Source: Candidatus Pseudothioglobus singularis PS1
Lineage (GTDB): Bacteria; Pseudomonadota; Gammaproteobacteria; PS1; Pseudothioglobaceae
DNA length: 64,000 nt
Direction of reading: 5' to 3'
Assembly: GCF_001281385.1 (NCBI RefSeq)
Contig: NZ_CP006911.1
Coordinates: forward strand, 1,612,001-1,676,000
Positions 5,151-12,337 of this stretch are shown here, piece by piece. A program made the translations under genes and the position numbers. Numbering within the stretch: position 1 is the first letter of the stretch; each line of letters opens with the position of its first letter. The notes beneath the pieces were generated by a model that was not told the DNA's origin, ran no database searches, and saw only the letters and a program-made list of their open reading frames with translations.

Positions 5151-7451
5151 ATGACACCTAATTCTCTTACCTTTGACCACTGGATTAGAAATCGCTTTGT
5201 TGAGCTCAATACAGAGCTTGAGTTACTCTATAAAAATCAAAATGAACGCATTAATGTGAATCAAGTGGGTGATCAAATAAAAAAAACACTTGAAGATGAA
5301 GGACGTGATCTCATCAAACAACTTCTATCGGAGGGTAATACAGATGAAGGCTTTGATAATGCTTTTGACCTTTTAGGAAATGTTGGGCTTTACATGGCGG
5401 CATGTCGAAGACATGAAATAACTGACCCATCTAAAGACTCATCATCGCCCTTGAAAGAAGCTTCTGGGCTTGCAATGAATATTGGTGCATCGATAGGTGT
5501 GGTGCCTCGCTTTGCAACAGCTCATCTATCAACTCACAACAAAGCTGTCGATGGAGTCTACAAGAGCTTTACGAGTTTGCCTGCTGAAAAACTCTTCCTT
5601 GATTACAATACGAAAGCCATTCTTGCTTATAAACGAGCTGCAGATGCCCTCCTTAAACTTCACTCACTTGGTATCTCGCATCCAATGTGCCAGGAACTGC
5701 TCCAAGTTGTAAAAGTATCCCTGATCGATGTCATTCAATCCAATCAATTTCTCTTTGATCAATTAAGTGTTGATGATTTTTTCTTCAGTGTAAGGCCCTA
5801 CTACAAGCCCTATCATGTTGGATTTCAAGTTTATCGGGGAGCTAATGCTGGCGATTTTGCAGGAATCAATGTCATTGATATTCTACTGGGACTATGTTTA
5901 GCAAAAGAGCCTGCTTACTCCCAAATGCTTGTTGATAAGTTTATGTATATGATGCCTGAAGACCAGGGTATTTTAAGGGACTGCATGAGAAGAACAAGCT
6001 TTATGGATGACTTTTTAAACGCTACTGATAGTAACGCAAAATGGTATCAGGATAATCTTACTTTATTCTTAGAAATTTGTGAACTACATGGTAAAGCCGC
6101 AACACAGCACCATAATCAACTCGTCGAAAAGTATATCGCAACACCTTCTAATTCTTTAAAGGAGACTCAGCTCGATAACATTACAGCGAGTGGCCCTCCT
6201 CTTGAAGTTTTAATTAGTGCACTTGAGAAACTAAGAGATAGAAGAGCTGCAGCAGATCGAAATGACATACCCACCCGATTTAAAGATATTGAAACTCTTA
6301 AAAATAGATTGAAAAAGCATTCAACCCAATATAAGAATTACAAAAAAGACTTTATATTAACAAACGCTAATTACCTTCTAAATCACTCGGTTGGAAGGCC
6401 ACTCAAGGACACTGAAACGATTTTTACTAATCAGTTTTTTGAACCTTGGTCCAGCTCTCTCGATGAGCCATGGAATCAATGGCTTCCAGTCATTGATCAC
6501 TTTACAAATGAATTAGCTCAGCTATTCAATGCTAAAAAAGAGGAGTTCTGTCCGCAGATTAACCTCTCTTCAGGGCTCACTAAAATATTACAGTCCTTCG
6601 AAGAAAATCAAAACAAAAAAATGGTTGTTTTGATGAGTGAAGTCGATTTTCCGGGCATGGGATTTGTCTTGCAAAAAGCATTACCTATTCATTCTAAAAT
6701 CAGGTTCATTCCCTCTAATGAGGATGTGACTGATTACACTGTTTGGGAGAAATATCTGACAGATGAAATTGATATGGTCTTTATCAGTCATGCTTATTCA
6801 AATACTGGTCAGCTCTCCCCAATAGATAATGTACTCTCTTTTGCTAGATCCAAAAATATATTATCAATACTGGATGTCGCGCAATCCGTTGGCATTGTTC
6901 CAATTAATCTAGAGGCTTTAGAGCCTGATTTTATGATTGGATCATCGGTAAAGTGGCTTTGCGGTGGACCGGGGTCAGCATACTTGTGGGTCAACTCTAA
7001 ACGTCTTCCTTATTGCAAACCCAGAGATGTGGGCTGGTTTAGTCATGAAAATCCATTTGAATTTGATATTCATGATTTTAGATATAAAGACACTGCCATG
7101 AGGTTTTGGGGAGGAACGCCATCGATTGCTCCTTACGTCATTGCAGCGCATAGCATCAATTATTTCAATCAAATAGGAATTAAAAAAATTCGGCAGCATA
7201 ATCAAATGCTCATTGAAAAAGTCTCAGGAGAGTTTGATGTTGAATTTGTATCTCCAAGGGAAGAGGCAAAGCGAGGAGGCACCATGATCCTTGATTTTAA
7301 AAATAATCAAGAGAGGATCTTAAGCCGCCTTAAAGAAAATAACATTAGTGTTGATGTTCGCAGTCAAGGCATACGCATCTCGCCTCACATTTATAATGAT
7401 GAGGCAAATATGAGTCATCTTATTGAAGTTATTAAAACAACAAAGTTTTAA
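5151..7451 (+). CDS. Fusion protein: PrnB/indole-dioxygenase-like haem domain plus kynureninase-like PLP domain
   Basis: 766 residues, two enzyme-like halves. Residues about 1-375 resemble the PrnB family (IDO/TDO haem dioxygenase superfamily): IGVVPRFATAHLSTHN (116-130), RPYYKPYHVGFQVYRGANAG (215-234) and ELHGKAATQHH (311-321), where H313 is a candidate proximal haem ligand. Residues about 400-766 are a fold-type I class V transferase: DVAQSVG (575-581), SSVKWLCGGPGSAYL with K601 as probable Schiff-base lysine, and RFWGGTPSIAPY (651-662), the kynureninase-like closing motif. The halves would suit oxidative opening of an indole ring and cleavage of the product, but no formamidase is adjacent. 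No signal peptide. Fold assignments are good; the reaction is inferred. Confidence 0.75.
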   Translation: MTPNSLTFDHWIRNRFVELNTELELLYKNQNERINVNQVGDQIKKTLEDEGRDLIKQLLSEGNTDEGFDNAFDLLGNVGLYMAACRRHEITDPSKDSSSPLKEASGLAMNIGASIGVVPRFATAHLSTHNKAVDGVYKSFTSLPAEKLFLDYNTKAILAYKRAADALLKLHSLGISHPMCQELLQVVKVSLIDVIQSNQFLFDQLSVDDFFFSVRPYYKPYHVGFQVYRGANAGDFAGINVIDILLGLCLAKEPAYSQMLVDKFMYMMPEDQGILRDCMRRTSFMDDFLNATDSNAKWYQDNLTLFLEICELHGKAATQHHNQLVEKYIATPSNSLKETQLDNITASGPPLEVLISALEKLRDRRAAADRNDIPTRFKDIETLKNRLKKHSTQYKNYKKDFILTNANYLLNHSVGRPLKDTETIFTNQFFEPWSSSLDEPWNQWLPVIDHFTNELAQLFNAKKEEFCPQINLSSGLTKILQSFEENQNKKMVVLMSEVDFPGMGFVLQKALPIHSKIRFIPSNEDVTDYTVWEKYLTDEIDMVFISHAYSNTGQLSPIDNVLSFARSKNILSILDVAQSVGIVPINLEALEPDFMIGSSVKWLCGGPGSAYLWVNSKRLPYCKPRDVGWFSHENPFEFDIHDFRYKDTAMRFWGGTPSIAPYVIAAHSINYFNQIGIKKIRQHNQMLIEKVSGEFDVEFVSPREEAKRGGTMILDFKNNQERILSRLKENNISVDVRSQGIRISPHIYNDEANMSHLIEVIKTTKF

Positions 7452-7493: not shown

Positions 7494-7880
7494 ATGGATA
7501 TTACAACTCCCGCACTTCTCTTTCCTGCAATCTCTTTGTTATTTGTAGCCTATACAAACCGCCTTCACTCACTGAGTGTCTTAATTCGGGCGATGACAAC
7601 TGAAGGGAGCGATGAGTCCAAGACAAAGCACGCAGATGAGCAACTGAATATTCTTGAAAAGCGTGTGATCTATATTAGAAGGATGCAGGTTTTTGGCGTA
7701 ATGAGTTTTATTTTTAACTTGATGACCATTATTTTGGTCTACTTAAAATATTACATACTCGCCAACTACATTTTTGGTTTTGGCCTATTGATGCTCTCTG
7801 GCTCTTTATTTTTTGCGCTTCTTGAAACAATAATATCAACAAAGGCGCTCGACATTCATCTAAAGAATTATAAGTCCTAG
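7494..7880 (+). CDS. DUF2721 family membrane protein
   Basis: 128 residues. The start TPALLFPAISLLFVAYTNR and following LSVLIRAM match the DUF2721 pattern. Hydrophobic segments lie near 5-22, 65-85 and 90-112, with a charged stretch between (about 30-60). Function is unknown. It follows the fusion gene by 42 bases on the same strand and may be co-transcribed. Its stop overlaps the 3'-end of the convergent ureohydrolase. Confidence 0.75.
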   Translation: MDITTPALLFPAISLLFVAYTNRLHSLSVLIRAMTTEGSDESKTKHADEQLNILEKRVIYIRRMQVFGVMSFIFNLMTIILVYLKYYILANYIFGFGLLMLSGSLFFALLETIISTKALDIHLKNYKS

Positions 7881-8875
7881 GTTTTATCGCCCATATTGTC
7901 AGCGATTAAACACACCATCTCAAACATGATTGAATTCGCTACATGTGAGGTAATCTGGTTAGGTGAGTCCACTGTTGGCATGAGACAAACTACGTCACCC
8001 CCAATAATATTTTTACCACGAAGACCTTGAAGCATCTTGAGGACATCTGGCATTTTAAAGCCTTCGATAGCAGGCTCGAGGTTAGACACACCAGGAGCTA
8101 CTGTCACATCTAGACAGTCTAAATCAAATGTAATATAGATAGGCGCATCACCAACGCGCTCTTGAATCATTTCTATGCATTTATCAACACCAAATTCATC
8201 AAAGTTATCCTTGGTAATGATCTCATAGCCCAGCTCATAGCTTGAATCCAACCAGTCAAGCGTTCTCGTGTTTCCCCTGATTCCAACTTGGATACTTTTT
8301 GACGCATCTACAAACCCATCTCTAACCAAATAGCTCGCCCAGTGTGCTGCGGATTTGACTGCACCTAAAAAATGATCAAGCTGGTGAAAGGCGTCTGTGT
8401 GCGCATCGAAATGAACCAATACAGCCTTTTTCCCATTGGTTAGTTTGGATTTTGGGCCTGCAATGGCCTGCAAGATCCCGCCTGTAATTGAATGGTCCCC
8501 ACCAATTGAAACTGGGCGAACGCCAGACTCAGCAAGCACTTCATAAAACTCCGTTATTCTCTCAATGCACTGCTCGTTATTGTTAGCTTCAGGAAGCGGA
8601 ACATCGCCAAAATCCCTAATTTCGCACATCTCCCATGGAGAGATGCCAAACTTTAAATGACCCCTTCTCCCCTGAGCTGAAATGTTTCTTACCGCTCTTG
8701 GACCTAAGTGCTGATCACGCTGAGTCGTTCCATTTCCTGTGCTATGAGGCACTCCAACAAGTGCAATATCACAGCCTTCGGGCTCAGGCTTATGTGGACA
8801 ACGAAAAAGTGTTGGCACGCCCCACCAATATAGGCCATTCATCATTGCCGAGTTGTCTCTTGTTTTCTTATCCAT
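7877..8875 (-). CDS. Ureohydrolase (agmatinase/arginase family)
   Basis: 332 residues. Binuclear manganese site motifs are present in order: GGDHSITGG, HFDAHTD and TFDLDCLDVTVAPG. These enzymes hydrolyse a guanidino group to urea (agmatine, guanidinobutyrate, arginine and others). The third motif has Val where many agmatinases have Pro (DLDCLDV), so the substrate should not be taken as agmatine without testing. The C-terminal half is well conserved and the length is slightly above the usual 300-320. Convergent with DUF2721. Confidence 0.85.
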   Translation of the reverse strand: MDKKTRDNSAMMNGLYWWGVPTLFRCPHKPEPEGCDIALVGVPHSTGNGTTQRDQHLGPRAVRNISAQGRRGHLKFGISPWEMCEIRDFGDVPLPEANNNEQCIERITEFYEVLAESGVRPVSIGGDHSITGGILQAIAGPKSKLTNGKKAVLVHFDAHTDAFHQLDHFLGAVKSAAHWASYLVRDGFVDASKSIQVGIRGNTRTLDWLDSSYELGYEIITKDNFDEFGVDKCIEMIQERVGDAPIYITFDLDCLDVTVAPGVSNLEPAIEGFKMPDVLKMLQGLRGKNIIGGDVVCLMPTVDSPNQITSHVANSIMFEMVCLIADNMGDKT

Positions 8876-10341: not shown

Positions 10342-11319
10342 TTAATTTGTAACAGTCAAATAGATTCTAGGCGCGCCCGAACCAAGAAGGCGTATGTCGT
10401 TATCATTTCCATCACTAAATTCAAGACTATTTGCAGCGGTTGCTACAATACTCATAGCAAAAGTGGAATTTTCCGTGACGACATAAGAGGTCGACAGGGC
10501 TGTTGTCCAAGCAATTTTGGCTGCATTCGCACAAGTTGTTGCAAACGCTTCAGCAGCTGTCAGTAAGTTAACGGTTGGTATCCCGCGAGTCGACCCTGTG
10601 CCCTCAATTGCAAAGGTAACTTTATCACCATTAGCAGCCAAAGCAGAACAATTTTCCTCACTAAACTTGGTTAAAAGCTCGTACGTAGTAACAACCGTGC
10701 CTTCAGCGGTACCGCAGTCCATTGTTTTAACATTATCTGCCAAAGAGGTACCATGTGCTGTAGTAAATGCAGCACCACCAGTTGGATAACTAGAAGCCCT
10801 CATGCCAGCGTTACTGCTCCAACAATAAGTTCCGCCATTACCATCACCAGACGATCCATCAACATCGTTACTAAATGTACCTGACCATTTCATGCCAAGT
10901 TTGGAGCTTAACTGAACATACAAGTATGGATAGGTTCCTGGCTCAATATAGAATTCTGGTATAGGTAGCGTTGCACTAACACCCTTCTGGATATCAAGTT
11001 CAATGCCTGCAGCACTCTCAAAGAACATCTGACAACTACTCAAGTCATTGAGATCAGGGTCTGCTGTGCAAAGACCAAATTTATAAATATTTAATTTGTA
11101 GATATCAGGGGTAATGAGACAGCTATCCTTTGCTGTATTAGCAGCAACTTCTTCATCAGCAGTGTCATCCTTCACAGGAGTAGTTGAGTTTCCACTCACA
11201 GTAACAATGGCCCCATCTCCGTTAACAACACATAGTGCACTGGCACTATTTGAAAATGCTATTGCCGCTAAAAATAAGGTGGCTAATAAAATGATTTTAT
11301 TTAAGTTTAGTGTTTTCAT
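10342..11319 (-). CDS. Secreted cysteine-rich protein downstream of an inverse autotransporter barrel
   Basis: 325 residues with a signal peptide ending near SASA (about residue 28). The mature chain is rich in Ser, Thr, Gly and Ala, has about nine cysteines and ends in YLTVTN, giving the look of an extracellular beta-rich protein. I do not recognise the family. Its ATG lies one base after the stop of the barrel gene, so the two are translationally coupled. The likely role is a surface or secreted partner of that barrel; this is inference from coupling. Confidence 0.75.
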   Translation of the reverse strand: MKTLNLNKIILLATLFLAAIAFSNSASALCVVNGDGAIVTVSGNSTTPVKDDTADEEVAANTAKDSCLITPDIYKLNIYKFGLCTADPDLNDLSSCQMFFESAAGIELDIQKGVSATLPIPEFYIEPGTYPYLYVQLSSKLGMKWSGTFSNDVDGSSGDGNGGTYCWSSNAGMRASSYPTGGAAFTTAHGTSLADNVKTMDCGTAEGTVVTTYELLTKFSEENCSALAANGDKVTFAIEGTGSTRGIPTVNLLTAAEAFATTCANAAKIAWTTALSTSYVVTENSTFAMSIVATAANSLEFSDGNDNDIRLLGSGAPRIYLTVTN

Positions 11320-11320
11320 A

Positions 11321-12247
11321 TTAGATTCCAGTTACTGTTAATGTGCCGGACCTTTTCTTGACAAGCTGATTTTCACGCTTAACAAGGTCATACCTTTCAG
11401 CACCAAGCTTCTTAAACTCGTAAGCCTTATCAGACAAAGTAAAGAGGGTTGGTCTTACGTGTTTTTCTTGACCAAATGCCCAAGTGAAGTTCAGTGAAAT
11501 GCTGTCAGTATCCTTCTTAGCGGCATCTTTATAATCAGTGCGGACGTAATTCAAAGATAAGTTATCAGATAAGCTTCCGCCTAAAGAGTACTTTCTCATC
11601 TTTTGATCTTTCAGGCCATCGATACCATCCCACTGCACTGCGTTCATACCGAACATCATGCCGGGAAGGTAAGGAAGCGCAACCTTGAAGCCCATGTCCC
11701 TTCCATCTAAAACCTTTGAGTCAGTTCCGCTCTTGTCCTTTATATACCCAGTAGTACCTTTATATATATTGACTCTGGACTCTAAGACTGAACTTACTAC
11801 TTCAAATCCTACGCCGTTTCGTTTGTGATCATCTGGAAACTCGTGATCATAAAATGCATTAACCCCGGTCATCCAGGTTTCATCAGCATTAAGTCTTCTG
11901 TAACCAAAACCAAGATTTAAAGTGGTTCTCTTATCAAACCGATTAAGATTGATCTGGTTAAAAAGAAAAGAGTTAGGGTTATCACCGAAGGCTTTTAGAA
12001 CACCTATATCAACACTCGAATCGCCCTCTTTTAAATTAGTACTGACCTCTACCGTGTCAAAATTAGGACTCAGAATTGCTCCAATACCAGAAGAGATAAA
12101 AGATCCAGTAGCTCCCGTCATTCTGCTCATTAATGAGGACTTAATCTGCTCAGAATCATCCGCATGTACCGTCAAGGAAAACCCTAGTGACATTGTCAAG
12201 ATAGAGCTAAGTAAAACCTTAGATACCTTATTACTTGATAATTTCAT
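11321..12247 (-). CDS. Inverse autotransporter beta-barrel protein (intimin/invasin-type) without passenger
   Basis: 308 residues from the ATG at 12247 (an upstream ATG at 12265 adds six residues). A signal peptide ends at SLTVHA. The barrel region shows TTLNLGFGYRR, WMTGVNAFYDHEF, RNGVGFEV and LPYLPGMMFG, the recognisable inverse-autotransporter domain of intimin and invasin. After the barrel, AERYDLVKRENQLVKK matches the usual plug/linker, then the protein stops within 15 residues. Intimins normally continue into Ig-like passenger domains. Here the next gene encodes a separate secreted protein instead. Outer-membrane location is expected. Confidence 0.85.
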   Translation of the reverse strand: MKLSSNKVSKVLLSSILTMSLGFSLTVHADDSEQIKSSLMSRMTGATGSFISSGIGAILSPNFDTVEVSTNLKEGDSSVDIGVLKAFGDNPNSFLFNQINLNRFDKRTTLNLGFGYRRLNADETWMTGVNAFYDHEFPDDHKRNGVGFEVVSSVLESRVNIYKGTTGYIKDKSGTDSKVLDGRDMGFKVALPYLPGMMFGMNAVQWDGIDGLKDQKMRKYSLGGSLSDNLSLNYVRTDYKDAAKKDTDSISLNFTWAFGQEKHVRPTLFTLSDKAYEFKKLGAERYDLVKRENQLVKKRSGTLTVTGI

Positions 12248-12337
12248 AAAAGAAATACCCATCATTAAATGGTGTAATTATATATCAAGAGACATATATA
12301 TGATAGAAGTTAAGAAGAGCTCCGTTCTTGAGCCAAT

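Follow-up and report, generated by a model that had tools for sequence, protein, structure and literature searches.

A single open reading frame of Candidatus Pseudothioglobus singularis PS1 joins a PrnB-family haem domain to a kynureninase-like PLP enzyme, and its product is probably a bifunctional tryptophan-catabolic enzyme that would open the indole ring and then carry out a kynureninase-like cleavage. The gene lies in a 64,000-nucleotide stretch of DNA, here called the window (Table 1). The N-terminal (N) domain would bind haem and O2 and would most likely turn L-tryptophan into N-formylkynurenine by opening its indole ring, in place of the canonical tryptophan 2,3-dioxygenase (TDO). The C-terminal (C) domain would form an aldimine on K601 and cleave the ring-opened product in its side chain to yield alanine plus an anthranilate-type compound, which would be anthranilate itself or, without prior deformylation, N-formylanthranilate. 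Fusion would tether the two steps 1:1. We infer this substrate, these products and this order of steps from what the two domains are and from where their genes occur, and as a prediction from sequence the chemistry is plausible.

Table 1. Position of the fusion gene, its parts and the divergent regulator gene in the window.
Feature	Position	Strand	Remarks
Fused PrnB-like haem domain and kynureninase-like PLP enzyme	5151..7451	+	766 aa, ATG to stop
PrnB-family (PF08933) haem domain, residues 4-386	5160..6308	+	Pfam 615 bits; fold match to SO4414
H313 codon, presumed proximal haem ligand	6087..6089	+	kept in 82/83 relatives
Linker, ~12 residues (386-397)	6306..6341	+	poorly conserved; low model confidence
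Kynureninase-like fold-type I PLP domain, residues 398-764 (about 395-766)	6342..7442	+	fold match 1QZ9
K601 codon, PLP-binding lysine; preceded by V600 (Tyr in kynureninases)	6951..6953	+	
Divergent Lrp/AsnC-family regulator, 160 aa	4502..4984	-	Pfam

A first-pass annotation had described one polypeptide with a PrnB/IDO-like haem half and a kynureninase-like PLP half, and both Pfam and structure searches confirm the two folds. The PrnB match (E 5.5e-185; gathering cut-off 27 bits) covers model positions 3-386 of 387, which places the N domain in that family. In the second half, Aminotran_5 is matched at residues 453-736 (E 1.6e-25) and KYNU_C at 680-760 (E 3.5e-8). The motifs that had been named are also in place: H313 and YRGANAGDF (228-236) in the first half, K601 and FWGGTPS (652-658) in the second. 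Neither half falls into an unrelated fold, the best structural matches being 2NWB and 1QZ9, and the two key residues are retained among relatives (H313 as in Table 1, K601 in 76 of 76 members of the PLP family). The AlphaFold2 model has a mean pLDDT of 88 but a pTM of only 0.57, with pLDDT below 50 at residues 391-393, so the single domains can be used while their mutual placement cannot.

Eight Ca. Pseudothioglobus species, that of the window among them, encode the fused form without any internal stop; the other seven proteins are 74-76% identical to the window protein. Identity between the window protein and the other fused species is 82-83% in the N domain and 68-70% in the C domain, and linkers of fused orthologues share 15-46%. 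Where synonymous distances are unsaturated (some are saturated), dN/dS is well below 1 in both halves. The presence of the same frame in seven further species, together with purifying selection on both halves, shows that the fusion is not a product of chance or of assembly.

Outside this genus, the two enzymes are encoded by split neighbouring genes in Shewanella, Pseudoalteromonas, Colwellia, Thalassotalea, Moritella, Ferrimonas, Endozoicomonas, Cellvibrionaceae and Arenicellales. At 66 such loci the two genes overlap by up to 98 bases or stand up to 159 bases apart, most of them lying within some 10 bases of each other in either direction. A tree of 55 N domains groups the fused forms in one clade (support 100/100), whose sister is an unfused copy found in a Pseudothioglobaceae bin. 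Taken with the adjacent split pairs elsewhere, this shows that the fusion arose once, in Ca. Pseudothioglobus, from a pre-existing adjacent pair. One split pair (G411) was considered as a lost fusion and rejected: its copy branches sister to the fused clade, the same genome also has a piece of an N domain next to an Lrp gene where a contig ends, and contamination is possible. The first-pass annotation knew of no such fusion, and our literature search, mostly of open-access rather than subscription journals, found none described; however, the unfused gene pair is widespread. The novelty is thus confined to a late, single-origin joining, and the enzyme combination itself is not new.

The closest solved structure to the N domain is SO4414 of Shewanella oneidensis, which is 66-67% identical over the whole domain and belongs to the same PF08933 subfamily. 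VIA-align of the modelled domain against 2NWB gives a Z-score of 48.8, an rmsd of 2.0 and 67% identity. That entry is titled 'Putative 2,3-dioxygenase (SO4414) ... in complex with ferric heme', and a second structure, 1ZEE, is also available. The fold and this haem-bound near relative place the N domain in the TDO/IDO/PrnB superfamily of histidine-ligated haem-dependent aromatic oxygenases. By analogy with that superfamily, rather than from coordinates, H313 would be the proximal iron ligand. SO4414 differs from the fusion in being free-standing, its partner being a separate gene in relatives. Although its crystal structures date from 2005-2006, the literature searched reports no function for it, and searches on SO4414/SO4413, DUF1864 and N-formylanthranilate returned nothing relevant. 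DUF1864 is, we take it, the earlier name of Pfam family PF08933. A comparative-genomics paper on corals (PMC6214176) includes it in a table of domains, and so the family may also be present in corals or their associates.

Two variants within the wider family were also observed. In one genome (G376), the PrnB-like protein (L007, 1492-2661) has Phe at the H313 position, which is His in the 82 others, and may have lost haem ligation, judging from this substitution; that genome has KynB and carries its PLP homologue at an unlinked site. At two other loci (L107, 1412-4840; L108, 677-4108), the haem protein has another set of neighbours: the PrnB-like gene is convergent with genes for a SufS-like class-V PLP enzyme and a CDGSH/cupin protein, and L107 also has a sodium:neurotransmitter-type symporter close by. 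The PLP gene at these loci was considered as a kynureninase and rejected, since its SufS-like score is higher.

What ties the haem half to tryptophan is chiefly its relationship to TDO. The protein has no Pfam or NCBIfam match to the TDO family (PF03301/TIGR03036), and yet the reaction proposed for the N domain is identical and TDO replaces the PrnB-like gene in other genomes. Among 117 genomes of one genus, 57 carry the PrnB-like gene, 25 a TDO-family gene and none both. The genus was taken as Shewanella from the tree and from TDO-like scores identical to those of named S. algae-group loci. A TDO-family gene is thus found in 0 of 57 PrnB-like genomes and in 25 of the 60 others (Fisher p 3e-9, uncorrected for relatedness), a pattern that could stem partly from shared ancestry. 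TDO is also absent from 12 further PrnB-like genomes (0/12) and from the complete window genome.

Replacement can be seen at individual loci. In the S. algae group, the gene immediately after a TDO-family gene encodes a member of the same PLP family as the fusion (38% identity). The TDO-like protein there keeps the distal and proximal His, but its QYR and GTGGSSG motifs are gone; it may not be a true TDO, and is possibly a TDO-fold enzyme of changed specificity, as far as its motifs tell. For this reason the S. algae-group swap does not by itself prove TDO chemistry. At three of these loci (L128-L130, 5253-7128), the short, 244-residue TDO-family protein overlaps the start of the PLP-family gene. 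A member of the window's own genus without the fusion (G425) has adjacent genes for a canonical kynureninase, a TDO and an alpha/beta hydrolase. Together, the exclusion and the two swaps indicate that the PrnB-like protein is most likely a functional stand-in for TDO. Canonical TDOs of other Shewanella adjoin a kynureninase-like PLP gene unlike this one, or else genes for an alpha/beta hydrolase and a flavin monooxygenase. At L161, L162, L163 and L165, the neighbour of the canonical TDO is a third, highly diverged class-V PLP protein of 395-417 residues, which barely matches KYNU_C and is possibly another kynureninase substitute.

The gene neighbourhood is also conserved. The Lrp-type regulator reported earlier as divergent from the fusion is indeed an Lrp/AsnC gene (Table 1), and a similar divergent gene lies upstream in 47 of the 73 related loci with enough upstream sequence; the Lrp-type protein is a candidate regulator of the pair. 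A tryptophan/tyrosine permease gene (PF03222) follows immediately downstream in Arenicellales and Endozoicomonas-type loci. A comparative regulon study predicts that TyrR in Shewanellaceae controls 'tryptophan (tdo-kyn)' degradation genes (PMC5343134). These genes are probably the same PrnB-like and PLP pair, because most Shewanella examined lack a TDO-family gene. Like the fusion, they are read as tryptophan degradation; unlike it, they are split, and the study names them as a prediction only. A TyrR-box scan upstream of 30 loci and in the window gave scattered weak matches (9-10 of 12 bases). Further along the window, two adjacent genes (11321-12265 and 10342-11319, both on the minus strand) encode exported-looking proteins, the first of which resembles, as an impression from its residues, an inverse-autotransporter-type beta-barrel.

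Assignment of the PLP half, a class-V domain, is less direct. Its best fold match is kynureninase 1QZ9 of Pseudomonas fluorescens (Z 42.3, 20% identity, 369 residues aligned), and all 76 family members share Lys601, Asp575, Phe500, Trp629, Thr656 and Arg742. These align with kynureninase Lys227, Asp201, Phe129, Trp256, Thr282 and the carboxylate-binding Arg, respectively. Alignment A1 misplaces roughly the first 38 residues of the PLP rows from split loci. However, the half scores 103 bits against kynureninase TIGR01814, for which the cut-off is 246.4, and is only about 24% identical to kynureninases (1QZ9; human 3E9K). Three further kynureninase residues are replaced throughout the 76 members: Asp132 mostly by Met, His204 always by Gln and Tyr226 by Val, Ile or Leu (Met, Gln and Val in the fusion). 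All three are kept in the ten kynureninases compared: that of P. fluorescens, five proteins scoring above the family cut-off and four assigned by similarity. By these measures the PLP half is a distinct family, outside kynureninase as defined. It may still work like a kynureninase, and because those three residues are missing in every member, its chemistry or substrate may differ. The earlier proposal that the protein opens an indole ring and then cleaves the product is therefore still the best-supported reading, with both domain assignments holding, but the second half is no kynureninase proper.

Two further observations count against a bifunctional enzyme. Some alphaproteobacteria have a PrnB-like gene without a linked PLP gene. 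A true kynureninase is also encoded separately in the window genome (G000:C1:1178490-1179659; L131 6440-7687; TIGR01814 339 bits); it sits in a molybdopterin-gene neighbourhood, in a genome without TDO or a KynB-type formamidase.

No formamidase had been noticed next to the fusion, and this absence reaches the whole complete window genome, which has neither a KynB-type gene nor an AFMID-like alpha/beta hydrolase at E <= 1e-5. Both types are also missing from three complete split-pair genomes, and KynB-type genes from four complete PrnB-like genomes besides that of the window and 11 of 15 genomes reached through relatives. An arginase/agmatinase-family gene (7877-8875, minus strand), convergent with a DUF2721 gene downstream of the fusion and kept in six fused relatives, was considered as the missing formamidase and rejected, as it lies beside the fusion within the genus only and not by split pairs elsewhere.

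One version of the bifunctional reading does without this step: the PLP domain would act directly on N-formylkynurenine, yielding N-formylanthranilate and alanine with no prior formamidase. Besides the missing genes, the three residues replaced across the family would suit a changed substrate. Against this, unrelated hydrolases are able to deformylate N-formylkynurenine, and PrnB-like and KynB-family genes occur together in two alphaproteobacteria and two gammaproteobacteria. Since two other fused genomes (G404, G415) hold alpha/beta hydrolases of the general AFMID-like type, the absence is only suggestive as evidence for a formamidase-free route. Direct cleavage is thus conceivable, though we lean against it. 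We are slightly more doubtful of the full form of that route, in which PrnB-type haem proteins would join TDO and IDO as a third tryptophan dioxygenase lineage, the PLP partner would be a kynureninase of a new kind acting directly on N-formylkynurenine, and one polypeptide would hold both steps in a marine bacterial lineage.

An improbable alternative is that the N domain turns a tryptophan into an aminophenylpyrrole-type product by PrnB-like oxidative rearrangement, or catalyses some other haem oxygenation, and that the PLP domain processes the product in a biosynthetic route. The N domain shares a Pfam family, as well as its superfamily, with PrnB (2V7I, 9DFG), which rearranges 7-chlorotryptophan and itself yields a non-oxygenated product (PMC11791213). 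However, it scores just 37 bits against pyrrolnitrin PrnB, over residues 67-274 only. No tryptophan halogenase exceeds the family cut-off in the window genome, where the sole match spans 46 residues at 20 bits, and no pyrrolnitrin-type cluster lies nearby. The small, conserved and catabolic-looking operon with its local Lrp-type regulator, and the substitution of TDO for the PrnB-like gene, also argue against biosynthesis. Finally, it is very unlikely that the PLP half is of the cysteine-desulfurase or C-S lyase type, functionally unrelated to the haem half and fused for co-expression only: SufS and C-DES do follow closely in sequence and fold (Z about 38-40) and Gln 578 is common to the desulfurase-like class-V proteins compared, but kynureninase is the best match by both measures, the SufS family score is 81 bits against a cut-off of 475, residues 731-760 contain no Cys where SufS has its catalytic one, the invariant GWFSH, GGTP and Arg motifs align with kynureninase, and the pairing with the haem gene is kept across many genera.

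In summary, two things were known before: the haem-bound fold of SO4414, and a predicted role in tryptophan degradation for a gene pair that is probably this one. New are the origin of the fusion in a single event from a conserved gene pair, the finding that the PrnB-like gene and TDO exclude each other, and the departure of the PLP active site from the canonical one. The fusion, the conserved pair and the exclusion lead to a specific assignment, that of a PrnB-type tryptophan dioxygenase, and the altered active site of its partner makes the question of the missing formamidase addressable. If the assignment is true, tryptophan catabolism would gain a third haem-enzyme lineage, and the possible use of tryptophan by many marine bacteria without TDO would be accounted for. 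The fusion would also offer a natural enzyme in which to ask whether PrnB-like haem centres manage TDO chemistry.
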